A stretch of 64,000 bases of DNA from assembly GCF_000591055.1 (NCBI RefSeq), contig NC_020388.1, forward strand, positions 1,054,001-1,118,000. The letters are read 5' to 3'. The position numbers and the translations under genes are program-made. Below are positions 53,056 through 64,000 of this stretch, piece after piece (the first letter of the stretch is position 1; each line of letters opens with the position of its first letter). The DNA is from Natronomonas moolapensis 8.8.11 (GTDB lineage: Archaea > Halobacteriota > Halobacteria > Halobacteriales > Haloarculaceae). The notes beneath the pieces were generated by a model. It was not told the DNA's origin. It worked only from the letters and a program-made list of their open reading frames with translations, and did no database searches.

Positions 53056-54162
53056 CTATCGAGGCGGATCGAACTGTTCACGAATCGACGCGAACTCTTG
53101 CCCGCGACCGTGCGAATAGTGTTGAGTTGTCTGTGGATCACGATGGTTCGCCACTAATTGTCGATACGGAAGCGGGACGCCAGCTTCTTTCATCAGTGTG
53201 AAACACGTATGCCGCAAGGTATGCACCGTTACACGGTGCCACTCCCTTACGTTGTTATTTGCCTCCGAGTGCTTGCCTTGCCCTGGCGGCACCTCGGATG
53301 TTGCAAGCACTTCCTGAATGCCTGCTCGCTCAGCTGCTGACCTGATAATCGTGTTCAACCCCCCGTTTGTTTCTAGCTTGGCTCCGTTACACGCGGGAAA
53401 CAGGTACTGGCTGTCTACCCTTGGGGCGTACCCGTCTCGGTACTGATCACACCATATTTGCAGCTCAATTCGAAGGTCACGGCTGATCGGTACATCGTAC
53501 GGCACCGAGTTCTTGGGGTTGTGAACGTGGATCTCTCCCGAGTCAAAGTCCACATCACTTACCCGAATATTCCGCAGATCAGAATTCCGCAGCCCGGTTT
53601 CGACAGCGACAACTGCCAGTAGACGGTTCCGGTAACTATTCATCGCATCGAACAGTTTTCGCAGCTCTTCTTGAGTGAGCGCCTCGCGTTCAATAGGCGG
53701 CGGCACGTTATACTCTGCTAGATCAATCCTCTCCAATTCGATCGGGTCAATCGTCAGCGCCTCAGCGGCAGCAGTTCGTAGCCGGATGAATACGTACAGT
53801 TCTCGTACCGTCGTTAGTTTTGACTCGATCGTGGACCGGCGGTTCCCTTGATCTACGCAGTGTTCAACGAACTCGATAACATCAGTGAGATCGGCATCGA
53901 GTAGATGCACTTCGCGATCTTGAAGGAACGCTGCGTACTGACTAAGATTCTGCTCGTATGTCGTCGTCGAGCTAGCGGTGAGCTGCCGTCCACTGCGTGT
54001 TTCTAAGTACGCACAAATGAACGGGCACGAGACTGAGAATCGGTCTGGGTTCTCTACACTTGGCTCGAACTCTTCGAACGATGACTGCTGTGCCAGGTCA
54101 GAAACACGAGCCGGTACGTGATCCATCAGCCAATTCTTGTCGGGCAATATGCTCGGTGTCAT
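53056..54162 (-). CDS. Tyrosine recombinase / integrase
   Basis: This 368-residue protein has an N-terminal SAM-like core-binding domain (about 50-135) and a catalytic domain with Arg192 in TGLRNSDL, His314-x-x-Arg317 in HTLRHT, His340 in NHRDPQTT and Tyr349 in QHYSHG. It resembles XerC/D-type archaeal integrases. Its 5' end overlaps the upstream DNA-binding gene by 4 bp. It probably mobilises the island; the near-palindromes at 52710-52803 are candidate sites. Confidence 0.92.
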   Translation of the reverse strand: MTPSILPDKNWLMDHVPARVSDLAQQSSFEEFEPSVENPDRFSVSCPFICAYLETRSGRQLTASSTTTYEQNLSQYAAFLQDREVHLLDADLTDVIEFVEHCVDQGNRRSTIESKLTTVRELYVFIRLRTAAAEALTIDPIELERIDLAEYNVPPPIEREALTQEELRKLFDAMNSYRNRLLAVVAVETGLRNSDLRNIRVSDVDFDSGEIHVHNPKNSVPYDVPISRDLRIELQIWCDQYRDGYAPRVDSQYLFPACNGAKLETNGGLNTIIRSAAERAGIQEVLATSEVPPGQGKHSEANNNVREWHRVTVHTLRHTCFTLMKEAGVPLPYRQLVANHRDPQTTQHYSHGRGQEFASIREQFDPPR

Positions 54163-54716
54163 CGGCTCGCCCCTCCATCTCGGGTTTGTTTGCCTGGCGT
54201 TGTTTCGATCATTGCAAGGTAGTATCGAGGTGTATCCTCTGATTTGACGAACACATGTCCCTGATCAATGAGGCTCCCAAGCACTTGTCGCACATCGACG
54301 GGCTGCATCTCGACTCGTTCTATAATATCGGCCACTCGAAGCGGCGTCTCTGTCTGTTTCAAGACCGCGAGTACTTGTCTTGCGTCTGAACTGAGAGCAT
54401 CCGTGCCAGCGATGTTACTCCCCTCTGTTTCGGTCTGCCTCGTGCTTCCTCGATCAGGGTGTTGAGCAGCTGTGTCAACTGCCTGCTCGAGATCGTTGAT
54501 TTGGTCTTCAATATGGGCGACTGATTCGGTTAACCGCCGGATCGTGAGATCACCGTGCCCGTTGAGCGTTTCACGATGATCCGTGATTGCCTGTCGGAGA
54601 CACAGGCTTACATTCCCTTGGTAATTGTTGGCTGCCATCCGCTCTAATTCTGCGTCCAGTTCTTCTGTGAGCGTGAACTTACGACGGATGAACGTCGCTT
54701 CCCTGTTTGTACTCAT
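54159..54716 (-). CDS. RHH/winged-helix DNA-binding protein of the integrase operon
   Basis: The N-terminus of this 185-residue protein resembles a ribbon-helix-helix (FIRRKFTLTEELDAELERMA). A coiled-coil-like segment IEDQINDLEQAVDTA follows, then a winged helix (ARQVLAVLKQTETPLRVADI, VRQVLGSLIDQGHVFV). Two DNA-binding modules in one chain suggest a regulator or an excision/directionality factor for the co-translated integrase. Confidence 0.7.
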   Translation of the reverse strand: MSTNREATFIRRKFTLTEELDAELERMAANNYQGNVSLCLRQAITDHRETLNGHGDLTIRRLTESVAHIEDQINDLEQAVDTAAQHPDRGSTRQTETEGSNIAGTDALSSDARQVLAVLKQTETPLRVADIIERVEMQPVDVRQVLGSLIDQGHVFVKSEDTPRYYLAMIETTPGKQTRDGGASR

Positions 54717-54725
54717 ACGTATCTC

Positions 54726-55268
54726 TCACAACGGTGTTCCTTGGAGTGCCTTCGACGGCACTAGCGGTCCGATCGATGTTCGAGCGTTCCATAACGCCTC
54801 AACAGATCGCCCGGCGATCTTTGATACTGAATGCTCTGCCGCAGCTGACTGTTTACTGGACGCTATCGAGTTGGTTATCGCTGGCGGCCAATCAGCCCAG
54901 TCCGTCTCGAAGTACGTTTCAATCACGTCGGCGATAGCGATGTGGTTGAATCCTCGTAACGTCGGCTGCGAAATCGCTTCACAATCCAATAGCCGCGTCC
55001 GAAGGATCCTCAGTGTGCGTTCTGTCGGTGTGATTAGCGTGACACCGTTGTATCGGTGCTCATCGAACTCTGTCCCGACCGCCTGCAGCAACTGAGGTTC
55101 TTCAGCCGGGGCTTCAGCGCTGAACGTTTCTGCCCGAATAAGCTGGTTCGTGTTGCCGACACCGATTTCACAGGCGCTGATATATGTTTCAGCCTCCGTT
55201 AGCGTAGCATCGAGCGTTATCAGGCACCACGAGCTCCGTAACTCGTCGTCCCCGTACCATCTATCCAT
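54726..55268 (-). CDS. Unknown protein between the Cas4-like and integrase operon genes
   Basis: The 180-residue protein starts MDRWYGDDELRSSWCLITLD at 55268 and overlaps the upstream Cas4-like stop by 8 bp. Strands CLITLDATLTEAETYISACE and NGVTLITPTERTLRILRTRL alternate with helices in a way that could be an RNase H-like fold, but I see no clear catalytic acid triad. Its position between a nuclease and an integrase suggests a DNA-processing module. No family is recognised. Confidence 0.6.
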   Translation of the reverse strand: MDRWYGDDELRSSWCLITLDATLTEAETYISACEIGVGNTNQLIRAETFSAEAPAEEPQLLQAVGTEFDEHRYNGVTLITPTERTLRILRTRLLDCEAISQPTLRGFNHIAIADVIETYFETDWADWPPAITNSIASSKQSAAAEHSVSKIAGRSVEALWNARTSIGPLVPSKALQGTPL

Positions 55269-56412
55269 CGAGACCACCTCTCTTGGAGGCCTGCTGTTCC
55301 GGGGAAGGCGCTCGAAGCGGTGCTGGAGTACCACTTTCCTTGCACTCTGTGCATAGGGGTGGCGTTGCTGGCTCACCGTCCCACTCTGGGTCATCCCAAG
55401 CAAATGCTGTGCTGCAGGCGACGCAGTGCCAGTCAAGTACCTGATACCGGGTCGCCAGTTCAGGGTAGTGGTGTGCCAATGTCGGTGTTAATTTTGCGCC
55501 ATCATGCGCATCTAGGTATTCCGTGACTTCCGACCTAGGATACGTCGCAACGCCTGGAAGAAACCCAGACGCGCCGATGTCTTCGTACTCCGAGCTACCC
55601 TTCCCACACCGCTCTCGATATGAACAGAACGTGCATTCCCAGTCGTGTTCTGGATCGGCTGGTGGGAGTTCATCACGCAATCGATAGCTCGTGTGCTCGG
55701 CGGCCCAGTCGAGAACAGTTTGCCGCCAAAAGACTGGATCGAACGTGATATGGAACGGCTGGATGTTTAGATTCGTCCGCCCACCGTAGATAATGAGGGC
55801 ATCGGTGAGCTGCCGATCATACTCCTGTGACAGGCCGTACATGTACGCGTGAGCCTGTGCTCGATGATGGCTGCTCGGTGCTTCAAGATCAGCAACCGAT
55901 TTCTTACTCTTGATCTCGGTGAGTACCTTCGGCTTCGAATCAGGGTCGACAATAACCGGGTCCGTCTCTCCTCTGATTTGAACCTCACCGGCTTCTGTCT
56001 GCACCGTGAAATCCACCCACAACGAGTTCGTTACGTACTCATCAGCTCCAGCCACAGCCTCTCTCAGAAACGGAAGAGCAACCTCCTCCTCAAAACGTGA
56101 TCCGATCCAAAAGATTCCCCTCGGGTCCTCTTCCTCGGCTGGTGCATTCAATTCATTATAGAATTTCTTCCGATGACACTGCAGCAGACTGCTTGGGCTT
56201 TGACGGTCAGGGGGCTTGATGTCACTCGGCCCGTTGAAATAAGCTGTTCCATTACGTATATTTTCAACAAACTTTCGATCTTGATACCATTCATCGAACG
56301 CGTCTGCGGACACCGAGTTGAGTATGCTTTGTGTTATATCTTGATCAGACTCTGTAGCATCCGGTTGCCCTGTACGTATCGCCTGAACCGTAGTTTCTTT
56401 TTCAGCAGTCAT
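55261..56412 (-). CDS. Cas4-like PD-(D/E)XK Fe-S nuclease with zinc-finger tail
   Basis: This 383-residue nuclease has all expected motifs: Cys79 in LLQCHRKKFY, G-x2-D (Gly148 to Asp151 in RGETDP), E-x-K (Glu166, Lys168 in TEIKSKK), Gln186 in QAHAYMYG, and Cys260, Cys263, Cys269 in CTFCSYRERC. These fit an active Cas4/Dna2-type 5'-3' exonuclease with a [4Fe-4S] cluster. The C-terminal extension adds two CxxC pairs (CVAC, CTEC). It is not near CRISPR. It starts the operon that ends with the integrase. Confidence 0.85.
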   Translation of the reverse strand: MTAEKETTVQAIRTGQPDATESDQDITQSILNSVSADAFDEWYQDRKFVENIRNGTAYFNGPSDIKPPDRQSPSSLLQCHRKKFYNELNAPAEEEDPRGIFWIGSRFEEEVALPFLREAVAGADEYVTNSLWVDFTVQTEAGEVQIRGETDPVIVDPDSKPKVLTEIKSKKSVADLEAPSSHHRAQAHAYMYGLSQEYDRQLTDALIIYGGRTNLNIQPFHITFDPVFWRQTVLDWAAEHTSYRLRDELPPADPEHDWECTFCSYRERCGKGSSEYEDIGASGFLPGVATYPRSEVTEYLDAHDGAKLTPTLAHHYPELATRYQVLDWHCVACSTAFAWDDPEWDGEPATPPLCTECKESGTPAPLRAPSPEQQASKRGGLDG

Positions 56413-57242: not shown

Positions 57243-57488
57243 ATGGGCGAACCAGGTCGGAAACCAACCGTTTCCGATGACGAAATTCTTGACGTGTTTA
57301 GCAAAGCCTCTGATCCTGTTCTCACGACACAGGAGATCGCAGAACAAATTGAAATTGGGCGTCGCGGAACCTTTGATCGATTACGCAAGCTTGCGGATGA
57401 GGGATCGGTTGAAATGAAGAAAGTTGGAGAGACGGGAGCTGTTTGGTGGTCTCAAGCCGCATTGCAAAGCCAGTACTCGGATAGGTAG
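57243..57488 (+). CDS. Small winged-helix regulator preceding the ATPase operon
   Basis: This 81-residue single wHTH domain reads DEILDVFSKASDPVLTTQEI, then EQIEIGRRGTFDRLRKLADE and GETGAVWWSQ. It lies 105 bp upstream of the GHKL ATPase operon on the same strand and is the best candidate for its regulator. Many defence operons have such small HTH proteins. There is no catalytic motif. Confidence 0.75.
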   Translation: MGEPGRKPTVSDDEILDVFSKASDPVLTTQEIAEQIEIGRRGTFDRLRKLADEGSVEMKKVGETGAVWWSQAALQSQYSDR

Positions 57489-57593
57489 ATATGAAGGGTT
57501 CTATGACATCTAAACGTTTAATAATGTGTTGTCCATCTGTGGAGTATATGTTCCGTACACCTGTTATCGATACTCTTTCCAGTATCAATAAAT

Positions 57594-59594
57594 ATGACTG
57601 AGGTAAAATGGAAGTTTCCAGATCAAGCATCGGGACTGACTGACTATCACTCAATCCCGACAGAAAAAGCATTAGACAGTGAGTTAGAGACGTTCGTTCG
57701 GGAAGTCCTACAGAATGCGAACGATCAGGGACTGCCGAACAATAAACCGGTGAAAGTGACGTTTGAATTTAACCGACTCACTGGTGACGATCTTAGGGAA
57801 TATCTTGAAGCGATCCAGTGGACTGGGCAGGCGGATCCTCCAGCAAATCTTCAGTGGCATGTTGAACGTGCTGTTGACAACGAACAAGCAAGAGACCCAG
57901 GGCTGCGACGCTTCATCGATAGCTTCGAACAGGATGAGTTGCTTGTACTTACCATCCACGACGAGAACACGACGGGGTTAGTCGGAGAAGAAGATGACAG
58001 TTCCCAACCATACGGAGCACTTGTGAAAGACTTCGGGGGTTCGGAGAAGTTAGACTCAAGCTCTGGCGGGAGTCACGGAGTCGGGAAGACTGTTTTGTGG
58101 GCGTTCTCTGGCGTTTCGACGGTGATATTTAATTCCAATCCGCGTGACACGACCGGTTCCAATGAAGAACCGCCACGGCTAATCGGTCGTAGCATTCTCC
58201 CTGCACATGAGCACGAAGACGCAGATCGGACGTACACGAACCACGGTTGGTTCGGATACGACGATGATTCGGAGATCAGACGGTTGGGACGCCCGCCATC
58301 TCTCTGGGACCCAGATGGTGCGGTTTCGGAACTAGCGGAGGTTCTACAGGTTGATCGGCAGAACGACGAAACCGGTACAAGCATAGGGGTCATGGGGTTC
58401 CGAATCCCAGGCGAAGATATGCATCCTGACCCTGGAGACCTATCTACGCAGTTCCGTCACGCCGCCGTGAAACACTTCTGGCCAGCCATTTCTCGAGGCG
58501 ATTTAGACGTTCGGGTCCGCACGCCGGACGGTACCGAAGAGGTCGCAAACTGGGACGATGCTCCCGGTGTACGTCCATTCGTTGAGTGCTACTCCCAGTT
58601 GTTCAAAATTGACACCGACGATCTAGATGGCCCAGGCTCAGTGGCGAAGACAAGTGTCAATGTCACTGTGCCTGAAGAGAGCGACGGGGTGATAGATTCA
58701 CCCGATCCAGAGTACGAAACAGCCGTTGATCTTCTCATCCGACAACTGAACCCGACTGACACAGAAGAGTTTGACCAGAGCGACGACACCGACCTGAGCA
58801 GGAACCGGGTGGCGAGACTTCGAGGTGCACAGATGATTGTAGACTATGTGGACAAGAGCAGCGTCGCGGACAGAGGTGACGAGTTTGTCGGGGTCCTAGC
58901 CTGTGGGGAGGCACAATCTCCCAACGGCGATACGCCAACACCAGAGCAGCGGGGGGTTGAAAAGTTCCTCAAACGATCAGAACCGACTCAGCACGACGAC
59001 TGGCAGGGTAGTAAGAACGATTATTTGAAGAAACACTATCGCGGTACCATAGTTAAAGAGATAGCTGCCCTTGAGGGGGAGAGACTAGAGCGAGCTCTGG
59101 CAGGGGTTGTTCAAGAAGATATTGAGTCGGGTGACGAAGTTCCAGACATGGATGATGTAGCGCCGATAATGGGTGAGAGGACGAACAACGACGAAAGCAA
59201 GGGCGGTGGCCCAGTGATGGACTGGGAAGTAGAACCTGAAACGTGGTTTGACGACGGGTACTGGTTATTTTACGGTAAGGGTGGACCGATTGATGACAAG
59301 CATGAGGACTGGAGTGTCACGGTCACGATTAATAGATTGGACGTTGATGAATCGTCGTCAGAATCTATACCAGTCCAGTCTGTGAAGTCTCTCTCGCCAG
59401 GTGTAGAAATGAGGTACAACGGTTCGTCTGTTACACTCAAAGCTAACGGGTCAATCAACGAAATTGAGTTTGAAGGTAGCTCCGAAGAAATTATAGACGG
59501 TGTCGGAGATGTGAGAGAAGCGTTTGAAATCGGAGCGATCACAGAGGCGAGGTTGGATGTCTCAGCCGAGATTGAGACGGAAGGTGACTCCTAA
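57594..59594 (+). CDS. GHKL (Hsp90/MutL-like) ATPase, putative defence component
   Basis: The N-terminus of this 666-residue protein has the Bergerat-fold motifs. The N-box is REVLQNANDQG (Glu37 base, Asn41 metal ligand). Motif G1 is LTIHDENTTGLVG (Asp123, Gly128). The lid G2 is GGSHGVGKT (158-166). The remaining about 450 residues match no domain I know and include an Asp/Glu-rich middle. GHKL ATPases linked to DNA methyltransferases form a described group (MORC/MutL-like) in restriction-type systems. Its stop overlaps the next start (TAATG). Confidence 0.82.
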   Translation: MTEVKWKFPDQASGLTDYHSIPTEKALDSELETFVREVLQNANDQGLPNNKPVKVTFEFNRLTGDDLREYLEAIQWTGQADPPANLQWHVERAVDNEQARDPGLRRFIDSFEQDELLVLTIHDENTTGLVGEEDDSSQPYGALVKDFGGSEKLDSSSGGSHGVGKTVLWAFSGVSTVIFNSNPRDTTGSNEEPPRLIGRSILPAHEHEDADRTYTNHGWFGYDDDSEIRRLGRPPSLWDPDGAVSELAEVLQVDRQNDETGTSIGVMGFRIPGEDMHPDPGDLSTQFRHAAVKHFWPAISRGDLDVRVRTPDGTEEVANWDDAPGVRPFVECYSQLFKIDTDDLDGPGSVAKTSVNVTVPEESDGVIDSPDPEYETAVDLLIRQLNPTDTEEFDQSDDTDLSRNRVARLRGAQMIVDYVDKSSVADRGDEFVGVLACGEAQSPNGDTPTPEQRGVEKFLKRSEPTQHDDWQGSKNDYLKKHYRGTIVKEIAALEGERLERALAGVVQEDIESGDEVPDMDDVAPIMGERTNNDESKGGGPVMDWEVEPETWFDDGYWLFYGKGGPIDDKHEDWSVTVTINRLDVDESSSESIPVQSVKSLSPGVEMRYNGSSVTLKANGSINEIEFEGSSEEIIDGVGDVREAFEIGAITEARLDVSAEIETEGDS

Positions 59595-60598
59595 TGCCTG
59601 CGAACACTCAAAACTCAAAGTCACGCGACGAGTCAATGCCGTATCACTACGCGGATGGTTGCCTACAGTTCGGTGTCACTGGTTTTTCTTTTGATGGGGG
59701 CGATGTCGGGAGTCCGGATTACGATGACAGGACGATCCCACTGTATGACTACGGTGACTGGTCAGAGGTCAGGATTAAGGGGGACGTGGCGGTTAGCAAC
59801 TCTGTCGAACGTGTCTTTCCTGATGATGAAGGGCCACCCTTCCCGGCAGAGCTAATCGTGATCGTTGACGCCGAAGAGACACAACTACGTTTTGAGAAGA
59901 CTATCGCAGACCCACCGATCTCCGATGGCAGTTACGACGTGGAACTCACTCTCAATAGGTCGCTTCTCCGTGGCGACGTGGTCATGACGCCTCGATTGGT
60001 CAGGACAGAATCATGTCGGGAGGGACTCCCGTATGCACCGAATGATGGGATGCGTGTGGCTGGTGGTGAGAGTTGGACTGTCGTCGTAGACCACCCCACG
60101 AAAGACTCCGATGGGTTCCCCTTCGTGTACCGGGACTTCTCACAAGATAGTATGCCTTCAGAAGAGTTGGTCCATTCATTCAGTAAGAGGCCGAATCCGA
60201 AGATGATGATCAACAATCAGAACGAAAATGTCGTGGATGTCCTCCAGAGCGGCAACACGTACGGCTTCCGACCGAATATGAAACGCCTATTAAAAGCCGA
60301 CTTTGGAGTCACCCTTTGGATCCAACTTGTAGTACTCACAGGAACGACTATCGCCGAAGCGGGTGAGCCTGAGTTTGACTGGCAGAAGGGCGTAGTTGAA
60401 GAGATATCTAACTCTGTACTCGGAACACACCTCTTCGGTGAAGATGTTGATTACGAGACCGTCGTCTCGGAACTTGGAGACAATATCTCCGAACCCTCAA
60501 AGTTGCGGGAACTGATCACCAACATCTGTGAAGCCGTACAGCTCTATCAAGAGTACGCTGAAGATTTGGACTACTTCATCCAAGAGCACTCACCATGA
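59594..60598 (+). CDS. Unknown protein of the ATPase operon (334 aa)
   Basis: This soluble protein begins in a beta-rich region (CLQFGVTGFSFDGGDVGSPD, AELIVIVDAEETQLRFEKTI, SYDVELTLNRSLLRGDVVMT) and ends in a helical tail (LRELITNICEAVQLYQEYAE). No catalytic motif or known domain is recognised. It overlaps its neighbours at both ends (TAATG at the start, ATGA at the end), so it is an obligate member of the operon. It may recognise a target or act as an adaptor; that is speculation. Confidence 0.75.
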   Translation: MPANTQNSKSRDESMPYHYADGCLQFGVTGFSFDGGDVGSPDYDDRTIPLYDYGDWSEVRIKGDVAVSNSVERVFPDDEGPPFPAELIVIVDAEETQLRFEKTIADPPISDGSYDVELTLNRSLLRGDVVMTPRLVRTESCREGLPYAPNDGMRVAGGESWTVVVDHPTKDSDGFPFVYRDFSQDSMPSEELVHSFSKRPNPKMMINNQNENVVDVLQSGNTYGFRPNMKRLLKADFGVTLWIQLVVLTGTTIAEAGEPEFDWQKGVVEEISNSVLGTHLFGEDVDYETVVSELGDNISEPSKLRELITNICEAVQLYQEYAEDLDYFIQEHSP

Positions 60599-61311
60599 CG
60601 ACAATCCATATACTGACCGACTCGGGCCAGGACCTTGTGAAGTCCCACGATAGCTTTCCGGAGGAGGAAGACTCTCAACCACCTACGGAGGAACTGGAAA
60701 ACCACCTCCGGACTCTTGAAGTGGACGAAGCCACGATTGATTTCAACCGGCTTAACGAGGCAGTTAATTCATCAATGACCGTTTTTGACTTGGGGCGACG
60801 GCGACAACGAACAGCGATGGACTCAAACCTCGCACCCATAGTACACCAGTGTATTGATGTACCACCGAGAGTCGCCGCAGTACCTGGAATGTGGCACTAC
60901 CTGGCTCTCCTCCGATACCCAGAATTTATTACTTCCAGGTGGAGTCAAGATGACGATGTACAAGAGAAGTTCCTCGGGACTCAAAAGGACCTCTACTCCA
61001 ATCACCTAGCTCGCCTCTGGTGGGGTGCCCAACTCACTTACGATAAGGATGGAGATCACTACTTTGCGACTCACCGACTATTCAACAAGCAACGGTTGGT
61101 GAACTACGTGCTAGACAGCTCATTCAGACGATATCGGCCAGCAGCGATCGCGTTTGCCGAAGAACTCTGGAATGAGAGTGGGAAAAATATTACCAGCATC
61201 GCCAAGAGATTCAATAACTCACTCTCAACGACACAACTTGAGGCACGCTCAAAAGATGAGATCCGGGGCCAGCTCACGAAGATTAGAGATCATGTTGAGA
61301 ATACGGGCTAG
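60595..61311 (+). CDS. DUF6339-like protein, third gene of the ATPase operon
   Basis: In this 238-residue protein the segment FLGTQKDLYSNHLARLWWGA with YDKDGDHYFATHRLFNKQRL, then YVLDSSFRRYRPAAIAFAEE, resembles DUF6339, a family I recall from prokaryotic DNA-modification or defence neighbourhoods. It is mostly helical, with conserved-looking Trp/Tyr and Arg/His residues. It overlaps the middle gene by 4 bp. Activity is unknown. Confidence 0.6.
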   Translation: MTTIHILTDSGQDLVKSHDSFPEEEDSQPPTEELENHLRTLEVDEATIDFNRLNEAVNSSMTVFDLGRRRQRTAMDSNLAPIVHQCIDVPPRVAAVPGMWHYLALLRYPEFITSRWSQDDDVQEKFLGTQKDLYSNHLARLWWGAQLTYDKDGDHYFATHRLFNKQRLVNYVLDSSFRRYRPAAIAFAEELWNESGKNITSIAKRFNNSLSTTQLEARSKDEIRGQLTKIRDHVENTG

Positions 61312-61902
61312 TGACTATATCGTGGTTTCATTCGTCTTTAGTTAAGTCTGATAGTAATATTTGAGATTGAATTATGTCTATAAGTATTACAAACAATAGA
61401 ACTCACGGTTTAGATTCTGGTGTTGCCGATATCGAGCTATAAGTGTCCCCGGCAAGTGCTATTTTCCCCGTGTATCTGGCGTGAAAGCGTCGAATCTGGG
61501 TAAAAAATGAAGCTACTTGGTATTACTGAGAGTATTAACTAAAGACGGATGATCGTGGTTTTTTGTTTGATAGAAATCTTGGTCAGTTTGGTCAGATGTA
61601 CTTATTCAACCCCTTCACTCCCCCTTCCACATGAAGATCTTGTGGCCGAGTCCAAAAGTAACTGGCCTCTTTTTAATGCTCTGAGCGATTGTGGATAATG
61701 TGTACGTGCTGTGCATCCTCACATTTTGCACTGCTCTTCGTAACTATATCTCCCTCAACATTTTGACACTCGTTGGTACCGCGATAACTCGGGTGTAACT
61801 GTTTCTATGAGACGCGATTACGGCTTCGGTCGTGAACTGCTGGATACTCCTTGTGGAGCGTCTATCAGTCAAATATGGCAATTCAGGGTTGAAGAAGAGC
61901 TA
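61312..61902. other. AT-rich 591-bp stretch without genes
   Basis: Between the ATPase operon and the insertion sequence I see no open frame of useful length in either strand. The DNA is AT-rich with short palindrome-like and poly-T segments. It may hold a terminator for the operon, remnants of older insertions, or an untranslated RNA. Nothing definite can be supported. Confidence 0.6.
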
Positions 61903-61947
61903 TAGTAGTCGGTAGAACTTTTTACTCGTGGCTTGTTGCAGTATGTA

Positions 61948-62951
61948 GTGAATCATCTCGACGAGATCTCCGTTGAGGAATTACAAGACGCCCTCGACAA
62001 CGTGGACGAAAAGAAGCCGACACAACGGCTCTTAGCCGCAATCGCGTACAAAAACGGTGTGTCGCAAACTGAGTTAGCCGAGTGGTACGACGTTCAGCGG
62101 CGGACGATCTACAGCTGGCTCAAGCGACTCGACACCGACGAGTCGCTTGGGCAGGCCGTGTCTGATGCTAAACGAACCGGGAGAAAACGAAAGTTGTCAG
62201 AATCACAGCTAAAAGAATTTGAAGAAACTGTACACGAACCACCCGACGAGGTTGGTATTGACGCGCCGGCGTGGACGCCGGCGCTCGCGCAAAACTTTCT
62301 CGAAGAGACCTACGGCGTCGAGTATTCAGTCTCGTCTTGTCGGCGGTTGCTGAAAGAGGCTGGGTTGAGTCATCAAAAACCCCGCCGAACAGCCGCTGAA
62401 ACCGATGAAGACGAGCAAGACCGGTTCCACGACGAGCTCAAAAAAAAGCGACGGGAGCTGGACGCCACGGTAGTTTGTATCGATCAAACAAAAAAAAATC
62501 CGTGCAAGTCGAGCCGCGTGCCGCGTGGTTTCCGCGCGGCACGCGGCCCTCGGTCGAACTGTCTGGTCAACGTGATTGGACGTGTCTGTTGGGTGCGATC
62601 ACCGAGGACGGTGATCGCTTCTTCTCTCGGTTTACCGAGTACGTTACGGCTGAACACGCGAAACATTTCATTTTAGCATTATGCAAAGAATTTGAAGATG
62701 ATTTGATTGTTGTGCTGGACGGAGCGCCGTATTTTCAGGCGTCAGCCGTCACGGACCTGGCGGCCCGTGACGACCTCACCTTCGTGACGTTACCGTCGTA
62801 TTCACCGGAATTAAATCCGGTCGAAGAATGCTGGAGACAGGTACAAAAGGCACTTAGCAACCGATTCTTTGACTCTCTCGACGAGCTAACAACGGCGATT
62901 GACACCGCTCTCGACAAACTCTCTGTTCCTACTGTGAGCAATTACTTCTAG
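61948..62951 (+). CDS. IS630-family transposase, two frames joined by -1 shift
   Basis: Frame 1 carries HTH domains (GVSQTELAEWYDVQRRTIYS, then a Myb-like linker) up to the first catalytic Asp in VVCIDQT. Frame 2 carries the rest of the DDE core: VVLDGAPYF and SYSPELNPVEECW. The shift lies in a run of nine A (62490-62498). A GTG at 61948 is the likely start; a TTG at 61933 is also possible. The full-length product would be about 330 residues, normal for the family. Confidence 0.85.
62490..62547 (+). promoter_or_regulatory. Slippery A9 run and 13-bp stem-loop: candidate -1 frameshift signal
   Basis: Nine A (62490-62498) form an A-AAA-AAA slippery run. A perfect 13-bp stem follows after 14 nt: 62513-62525 pairs with 62535-62547 around a 9-nt loop. 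Reading -1 at the A run joins the two transposase frames. The stem is also coding, so it must be tested. Confidence 0.7.
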
Positions 62952-63092
62952 TGTCTACTATAGTGTGATAAAATAATGTTTTCAGCTGATTCATTTACGA
63001 TGAGTGTTCCCTTGTTCCCCCTGCAGCTATGTATGATTCTATCTCATCCTCTATTTGTCCCGTTCCGACTGCACATATATTATACGCGATTA

Positions 63093-64000
63093 TCACACAG
63101 ATTCTGACGGACTAAAATCTGTGATAGTCGCTTGTCTGTCCATCCACATGAGGAACTCACTAACTCGATCACCGACGACTTCTCCCAGCCTGGGTGGAAC
63201 TGCGTTCCCGATCAGACGGCCAACTTTGATTATCTCAACTTCTTCAAGATCGTCAGCGAAGCGGTAGTCTTCAGGAAAGGTTTGTATCATCGCACCCTCA
63301 CGGAGTGACAGTGCACGATCTTGATCGGTGTCATAGTGGCCGAAGCGTCCGCTCCCGAGGTTGTAGAACTGTGTCGTGATTGTCGGAGCCGGTTCGTCAG
63401 CGACCATCCGGCCATACACTGCTTCATACGTCTGGCCGCTCGCCTTCTTGTGGCAGTCTAATCGTAGCTCCTCTGGCCAATCTTTCCAACTCCCCCCAGG
63501 ATTTGAGCACCGGATCCTTTTTATGTTCGTCTCAGAAAGAGACCGTGCTGTATGTAGCGGATCTTCCTTGGACGTCTCACCGGCTTCCAGAGGATCCAGA
63601 TGATCTATTCGATCTTTTACTGTCGGATAGTCTGCTGGTTCGGGATTCAGCGGTGCTCCGAGGTCTATCCGACCCTTTTTTGAAGCCAGAACGACCCATC
63701 GGCGTCTAGTCTGCGGTATGTCGTACTCCGGGCAGTAGACCCGCCGATCACTTTTGGGATTCAAATTGTAACCAAGCTGATCAAGGCCATCAATAAATTC
63801 ATCGTAGACGTCGGCGTGGCGGACCTCAAAGACATTCTCCATAACGACAAAATCGGGGTCGCTCTCTCTGACGATCTCCAGAAATGCTCGGAGCATCCCG
63901 TATTTTGAGTGCTCGGAGCTATCCGACCCGTGAGTCAGTGGAGAGAACGGTTGGCACGGAGCACACCCCGCTAATAATGTCGCGTCGGCTTCCGAGTCAA
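63093..64000 (-). CDS. DNA cytosine-5 methyltransferase (5' end outside window)
   Basis: About 302 codons are present; the start lies beyond the window. The catalytic PCQ motif is in LLAGCAPCQPFSPL near the window edge. Then come motif VI MENV, motif VIII QTRRRWVVL, and the C-terminal GRLIGNAVPPRLGEVVGDRV. This is a complete C-terminal catalytic core of a Dcm-type enzyme. It is convergent with the insertion sequence and may modify host DNA for the ATPase module. No cognate restriction endonuclease is visible. Confidence 0.93.
   Translation of the reverse strand, partial: DSEADATLLAGCAPCQPFSPLTHGSDSSEHSKYGMLRAFLEIVRESDPDFVVMENVFEVRHADVYDEFIDGLDQLGYNLNPKSDRRVYCPEYDIPQTRRRWVVLASKKGRIDLGAPLNPEPADYPTVKDRIDHLDPLEAGETSKEDPLHTARSLSETNIKRIRCSNPGGSWKDWPEELRLDCHKKASGQTYEAVYGRMVADEPAPTITTQFYNLGSGRFGHYDTDQDRALSLREGAMIQTFPEDYRFADDLEEVEIIKVGRLIGNAVPPRLGEVVGDRVSEFLMWMDRQATITDFSPSESV

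Follow-up and report, generated by a model that had tools for sequence, protein, structure and literature searches.

The locus examined here raises the question of whether three tightly coupled genes in an AT-rich island of Natronomonas moolapensis 8.8.11 constitute a defence system, and how such a system would be related to the DNA methyltransferase encoded close by. The window, that is, the whole stretch analysed (64,000 nucleotides, bases 1054001-1118000 of the 2.91-Mb single-contig genome), had received a first-pass annotation, in which a GHKL ATPase, an unrecognised protein and a DUF6339-like protein (hereafter A, B and C) were proposed to form, together with a cytosine-5 methyltransferase (M1), a defence module of a possibly undescribed subtype. 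Here, we found that the locus is real, larger than this annotation saw, and partly known, with counterparts in the PADLOC candidate system PDC-M33, in paraMORC2 and in DISARM (defence island system associated with restriction-modification).

All genes named in that annotation are open frames where it had placed them. In unit 1, as we call the A-B-C copy within the window, A (57594..59594, + strand, 666 amino acids) is a GHKL/MutL-like ATPase of clade III, assigned by its PDC-M33A match, motifs and fold; B (59594..60598, + strand, 334 amino acids) is joined to it by a TAATG junction and lies outside known families; and C (60595..61311, + strand, 238 amino acids), a DUF6339 protein, overlaps B in an ATGA junction. 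M1 (63093..64000, the full gene extending to 64202, - strand, 369 amino acids) is a DrmMII-like cytosine-5 DNA methyltransferase (PF00145, E = 4e-31; PADLOC PDLC02651, E = 9e-130 at full length) that contains the motifs PCQP, ENV and GNAVPP. Within 19 kb past the window, we identified a second methyltransferase, a second A-B-C unit and a set of DISARM genes. M2, which is also DrmMII-like (E = 3.5e-198), is 56% identical to M1, and unit 2 (genome positions 1120799-1124431) encodes an A protein 36% identical to that of unit 1. At 1.2-8 kb past unit 2 lie the genes for DrmC (E = 2e-61), DrmB (E = 2e-181; both PADLOC) and a 1222-residue DrmA-like helicase, the last named from its position and its homologues, one of which is annotated as a 'helicase-related protein' in Halomicrobium urmianum. 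A Pfam scan of a 1396-residue protein gave no DrmE match, and its family aligned with a DrmE_C-bearing family in hhalign (E = 6e-14 over 652 columns). Thus, the first-pass annotation had covered one half of a two-unit locus: the triplet and M1 were borne out, and the second unit, DISARM and the rule on unit clades described below were missed since the window ended.

Among 392 haloarchaeal genomes surveyed, A was present in 29; every one of these also had C, which occurred in one further genome as a remnant (30/392). The strict coupling of the three genes proved general: in all 60 units of the fetched regions, A is followed by B and then C (one unit is cut off before C by a contig end), with intergenic gaps of -17 to +77 bp save for four larger negative gaps, which are likely start-site miscalls. 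A further unit, in genome G145, has no recognised B. The same clades were recovered in the trees of A, B and C.

A regularity appeared in how these units are combined. Two to four units, every one of a different deep clade, are held by 23 of the 28 genomes with scorable units. No same-clade repeat was observed, as against 8.2 expected (0/20,000 shuffles over the 28 genomes), and when each distinct clade combination was counted once (n = 10), P was 0.006. The A proteins of one genome share 26-40% identity, no more than units of unrelated genomes do, so recent duplication does not explain them. Clade I is represented in 23/28 genomes; in its place, two genomes pair clade IV with clade V, and a third pairs IV with VI. 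Wherever a clade I unit and the methyltransferase (M) are both present, they are arranged head-to-head at 104-710 bp, the exception being the miscalled G298. In the literature searched, we found no description of this different-clade rule, or of the sharing of a methyltransferase with DISARM, to which we now turn.

In the neighbourhoods of 31 haloarchaeal loci, M was found in 27, comprising all 14 loci with DISARM and 13 without it; at genome level, DISARM is absent from the locus in 15 of 29 A-bearing genomes. The idea that the ATPase and methylase belong to a MORC/MutL-like restriction theme is therefore upheld by both M and the association with class-2 DISARM. That system consists of DrmE, DrmA, DrmB, DrmC and DrmMII, and our locus has DrmC, DrmB, the DrmA-like helicase and a DrmMII-like M; what differs is that DrmMII pairs with A-B-C instead of lying beside drmC, and that two A-B-C units are added. 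Likewise, none of the DISARM loci bearing A-B-C has a methyltransferase beside drmC. Among six DISARM loci that have no A-B-C, a moderately similar 5-methylcytosine (5mC) methyltransferase lies beside drmC or close to it in four; the fifth gave only weaker matches and the sixth gave none. Since M is kept with and without DISARM, and most of these six loci have methyltransferases of their own, M looks shared, and the simplest reading is that one A-B-C-linked methyltransferase serves both A-B-C and DISARM. If the methyltransferases belonged to DISARM alone and A-B-C were an accessory that regulates or tunes it, one could readily explain why M scores best to the DrmMII models and why A-B-C is strongly enriched with class-2 DISARM (13/19 genomes with strong DrmB matches versus 17/373 others; Fisher p = 4e-12, kinship ignored). 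However, the 13 loci that hold A-B-C and M without DISARM, and bacterial pairs of A-B-C and M that mostly lack DISARM too, make such an accessory role improbable.

In 22/31 loci there is a gene for a G:T mismatch glycosylase of the MIG type, whose closest PDB entry is the archaeal enzyme 1kea (E = 1.4e-47). Such an enzyme is useful where methylated cytosines deaminate, as in MIG and Vsr repair. The locus in the window lacks it, and three more distant matches occur elsewhere in the genome. In G139, the A gene of the first unit (L036, G139:C1:18416-20379) is broken in two and the locus has no nearby methyltransferase, possibly reflecting decay of the system after loss of the mark. Several additional families accompany these loci. 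A 258-residue family (c5; e.g., L067:17448-18221) in 20/31 loci has an ENV motif and a conserved Cys (HPVC); its assignment as a divergent 5mC methyltransferase was unconfirmed by Pfam, PHROGs or PDB profiles, so we do not claim it. A 508-residue family (c9; L049:655-2178 and 10 other loci) occurs in loci with clade II units, and its resemblance by eye to GIY-YIG nucleases (GLY, YVG, Arg, Glu) was likewise unconfirmed by the same three resources and is not claimed. Two others (c14 and c15; L063:10593-11597 and L054:10874-11656) were observed in DISARM loci only, where drmC lies on one side of them and the clade I unit on the other; diverged relatives are also present in an A-B-C-free DISARM locus (G078).

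With regard to the ATPase itself, its Bergerat motifs are intact, as first annotated (E37/N41/D44, D123-x-N-T-x-G and G159-x-x-G162-x-G164), and invariant or nearly so across 58 homologues. At the end of an S5-like region, E463-x-x-x-H467 has both E463 and H467 invariant in 58/58 homologues. A of unit 1 matched PDC-M33A (PDLC04582) over residues 4-309 (E = 3.5e-28), and A of unit 2 did so with E = 5e-25. Its AlphaFold2 model (predicted local distance difference test score, pLDDT, 79) has a MutL-like N-terminal half, with MutL LN40 (1nhh, E = 9e-5) as the best PDB fold, and an immunoglobulin-like beta-sandwich in the C-terminal third; no nuclease domain was seen in the model. PDB sequence searches with the profiles of A, B and C gave noise only. 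Compared with MutL acting with MutH or Vsr, A shares the ATPase fold, and bacterial units lie by a MutH/Sau3AI-family gene (Priestia) or by vsr (Arthrobacter), but the similarity is low (9% identity, TM-score 0.41 to target) and there is no mismatch-repair context. The MutL-like N-terminal fold and the linked mismatch glycosylase might still suggest a mismatch-repair or chromatin-like ATPase that is carried on mobile islands and has no part in defence. We regard this as very unlikely in view of the patchy distribution (29/392 genomes, and none of 10 sampled congeners with A-B-C), the location in an AT-rich island and on plasmids, and the linkage to DISARM, GmrSD, HNH and restriction enzymes.

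The middle gene has kept its character as an unrecognised protein: B of unit 1 had no Pfam, NCBIfam, PADLOC or PHROG match, and neither it nor B of unit 2 matched PDC-M33B by hmmscan. Structure prediction (pLDDT 83) gave it a beta-sandwich followed by a helical half, but the fold matches of B, to Unc119/RhoGDI-like beta-sandwiches, were generic (TM 0.25 or less to query) and were not used for function. Archaeal B and most bacterial B form one family (hhalign E = 3e-55); for Bacillota B, profile comparison detected no relation to archaeal B (hhalign probability 2%), despite the same gene position. C is a DUF6339 protein as proposed (PF19866, E = 6.7e-20 for unit 1), it also matched PDC-M33C (E = 2e-13 in unit 1 and 1.4e-13 in unit 2), and it has the invariant residues W100, R115, K125 and D174. 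These residues in a protein of no known fold, along with the location of some plasmid units near abortive infection (Abi) genes, would be in line with C (or B) being a toxin released once the A clamp senses infection. Because the structure models showed no toxin or nuclease fold for A or B, and because A-B-C is linked to modification genes that abortive systems do not need, we consider that only a small chance remains for this explanation.

Outside archaea, the same A-B-C order was observed in Myxococcota, Actinomycetota, Cyanobacteriota, Chloroflexota, Planctomycetota and Bacillota, in most of the bacterial loci, and these are single units within the stretches examined. Fusions of A with B and of B with C in high-GC bacterial contigs were artefacts of open reading frame extension and were dropped. 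The neighbours of these units vary: a 5mC methyltransferase in Synechococcus; dcm, vsr, a type II enzyme and Shedu in Arthrobacter; a MutH/Sau3AI-family enzyme and dcm in Priestia; N6 and other methylases in Ligilactobacillus; and a MORC/Z1 set in Evansella. Several myxobacterial units have no such neighbours close by.

Is such a triplet a new system? PADLOC lists a phage-defence candidate (PDC-M33, PDLC04582-04587) that is likewise a triplet in A-B-C order. A and C match its profiles significantly, as remote members, and a Virgibacillus locus (L138) reached by homology from the A protein in the window is a full-scoring PDC-M33. Thus, the triplet is not wholly undescribed, and the ExxxH motif fits paraMORC2, described in 2008. 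On the other hand, archaeal B is unmatched to M33B, the PADLOC models name three genes only, and the methyltransferase, the second unit and the DISARM link are additional here. We found no paper on DUF6339 or PDC-M33 in the searched literature. Its listing as a candidate of its own raises the possibility that A-B-C is a self-contained antiviral system that merely shares islands with the other genes, each unit sensing a different viral trigger as part of an arsenal. Many myxobacterial units without a detected 5mC methyltransferase nearby are consistent with this, and different clades per genome would also fit different specificities. Nevertheless, clade I units face M head-to-head even in DISARM-free loci, M is retained in nearly all haloarchaeal loci and the glycosylase repairing 5mC deamination travels along, and single-unit genomes are rare in haloarchaea; we therefore judge self-containment unlikely, though it deserves serious weight.

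Other known systems suggest what the complex may do. As in A, a GHKL plus S5-like module and an invariant ExxxH are reported for paraMORC2 (PMC2292703), which is likewise linked to genes for cytosine methylases, Vsr and restriction nucleases and occurs in cyanobacteria and Gram-positives. In the text compared here, B and C partners and paired units are not described, and the helicase linkage of A-B-C, unlike that of paraMORC2, is not general outside DISARM loci. MORC/paraMORC ATPases have been proposed to loop DNA and so join a recognition site and a cut site (PMC2292703). A GHKL domain that works jointly with an antiviral nuclease is known from VcSduA (paraMORC3), a GHKL-Shedu protein active in phage defence (PMC12137116). 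In that protein, ATPase and nuclease form a single fusion, whereas A ends in a beta-sandwich. DISARM is reportedly repressed by methylation (PMC9142583).

From the GHKL site with ExxxH, the MORC looping proposal, VcSduA and the repression of DISARM by methylation, we infer that A-B-C reads methylation and licenses a nuclease. The reading that we favour, tentatively and at somewhat less than an even chance, is a paraMORC2-like, MutL-type A-B-C complex, kept as dissimilar paired modules, that licenses a nuclease against DNA without the 5mC mark. In each unit, A would act as a MutL-like ATP-driven clamp with B and C as obligate partners, B being a beta-sandwich/helical adaptor and C the DUF6339 partner of the clamp. 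M1 and M2 would mark host cytosines; the clamp complex would read DNA without the mark, or an unusual DNA state of the mark, and ATP-driven closure of the clamp would license a separate nuclease. No cognate type II endonuclease was identified between genome positions 1110567 and 1137000, where DrmC is the only recognised nuclease; the machinery here would likely be the adjacent DISARM (DrmA/DrmB helicase and the DrmC phospholipase D nuclease), with other nucleases elsewhere. Dissimilar units in one locus suggest either a mixed clamp or a pair of readers that complement each other: the two could be kept as partners in a mixed A1-A2 clamp, or as two non-redundant recognition complexes on one mark. 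It is also possible, though we think it rather doubtful, that the modules are obligately dissimilar, with a fixed clade I partner head-to-head with M and one to three variable partners, whose mixed clamps, like MLH1-PMS2, would recognise the mark and connect to nucleases that can be exchanged for one another, DISARM borrowing M.

Several observations weigh against the licensing complex that we favour. Some myxobacterial units (e.g., L114, L117-L121, L131) have no 5mC methyltransferase within the examined stretch, which implies that M may not be obligatory. Five genomes have one scorable unit, owing to contig ends, a broken unit or losses, and the clade shuffles correct for relatedness incompletely. 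A clear DrmMII is missing from two of the six DISARM loci without A-B-C. As the nuclease partner varies, the specific link to DISARM is one that we infer, and genes can share an island without functional dependence.

An IS630-type transposase in two overlapping frames (61933..62951, + strand; DDE_3, E = 5e-36; HTH_Tnp_IS630), with an A9 run near 62490, lies between C and M1, so that the methyltransferase is indeed beyond this element, as had been noted. C and M1 are 1782 bp apart here, whereas Haloarcula amylolytica (G114) has 122 bp between them and G057 has 225 bp; hence the element was inserted between the two genes and is outside the system. It is the sole full copy in the genome, where one 71-bp relic occurs at 1496347. 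A small winged helix-turn-helix protein of 81 amino acids (57243..57488, + strand; weak HTH family scores, PHROG transcription regulator 5e-8) does precede the triplet, but its inclusion in the module was rejected: relatives occur in just 3/30 other loci and none ahead of unit 1 in G114 or G057, and it is probably a neighbour.

The AT-rich island reported earlier was confirmed (GC 51% versus 66% outside); it measures 31 kb and extends to ~1137000 of the genome. A tyrosine integrase gene (53056-54162, - strand; PF00589, E = 4.5e-26) is located at its left end and a tRNA-Val gene (genome positions 1136983-1137055) at its right end, an arrangement that may mark it as an integrated element; a direct repeat of the tRNA-Val end was sought near the integrase and none was found. 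Directly before the integrase gene is that of a 185-residue protein (54159-54716, - strand) with weak similarity to the C-terminal region of replication protein A, and a 383-residue Cas4-like PD-(D/E)XK protein (PADLOC Cas4, 4e-11) is encoded at 55261-56412 (- strand).

If the favoured reading is true, this locus would provide an anatomy and a test bed for candidate PDC-M33, and would account for some archaeal DISARM loci being without a methyltransferase beside drmC. The different-clade rule makes a sharp prediction about partner modules. More generally, MutL/MORC-type ATPases would serve as exchangeable control modules that link a single methylation mark to many different nucleases, which would bear on the origin of the eukaryotic MORC silencing ATPases.

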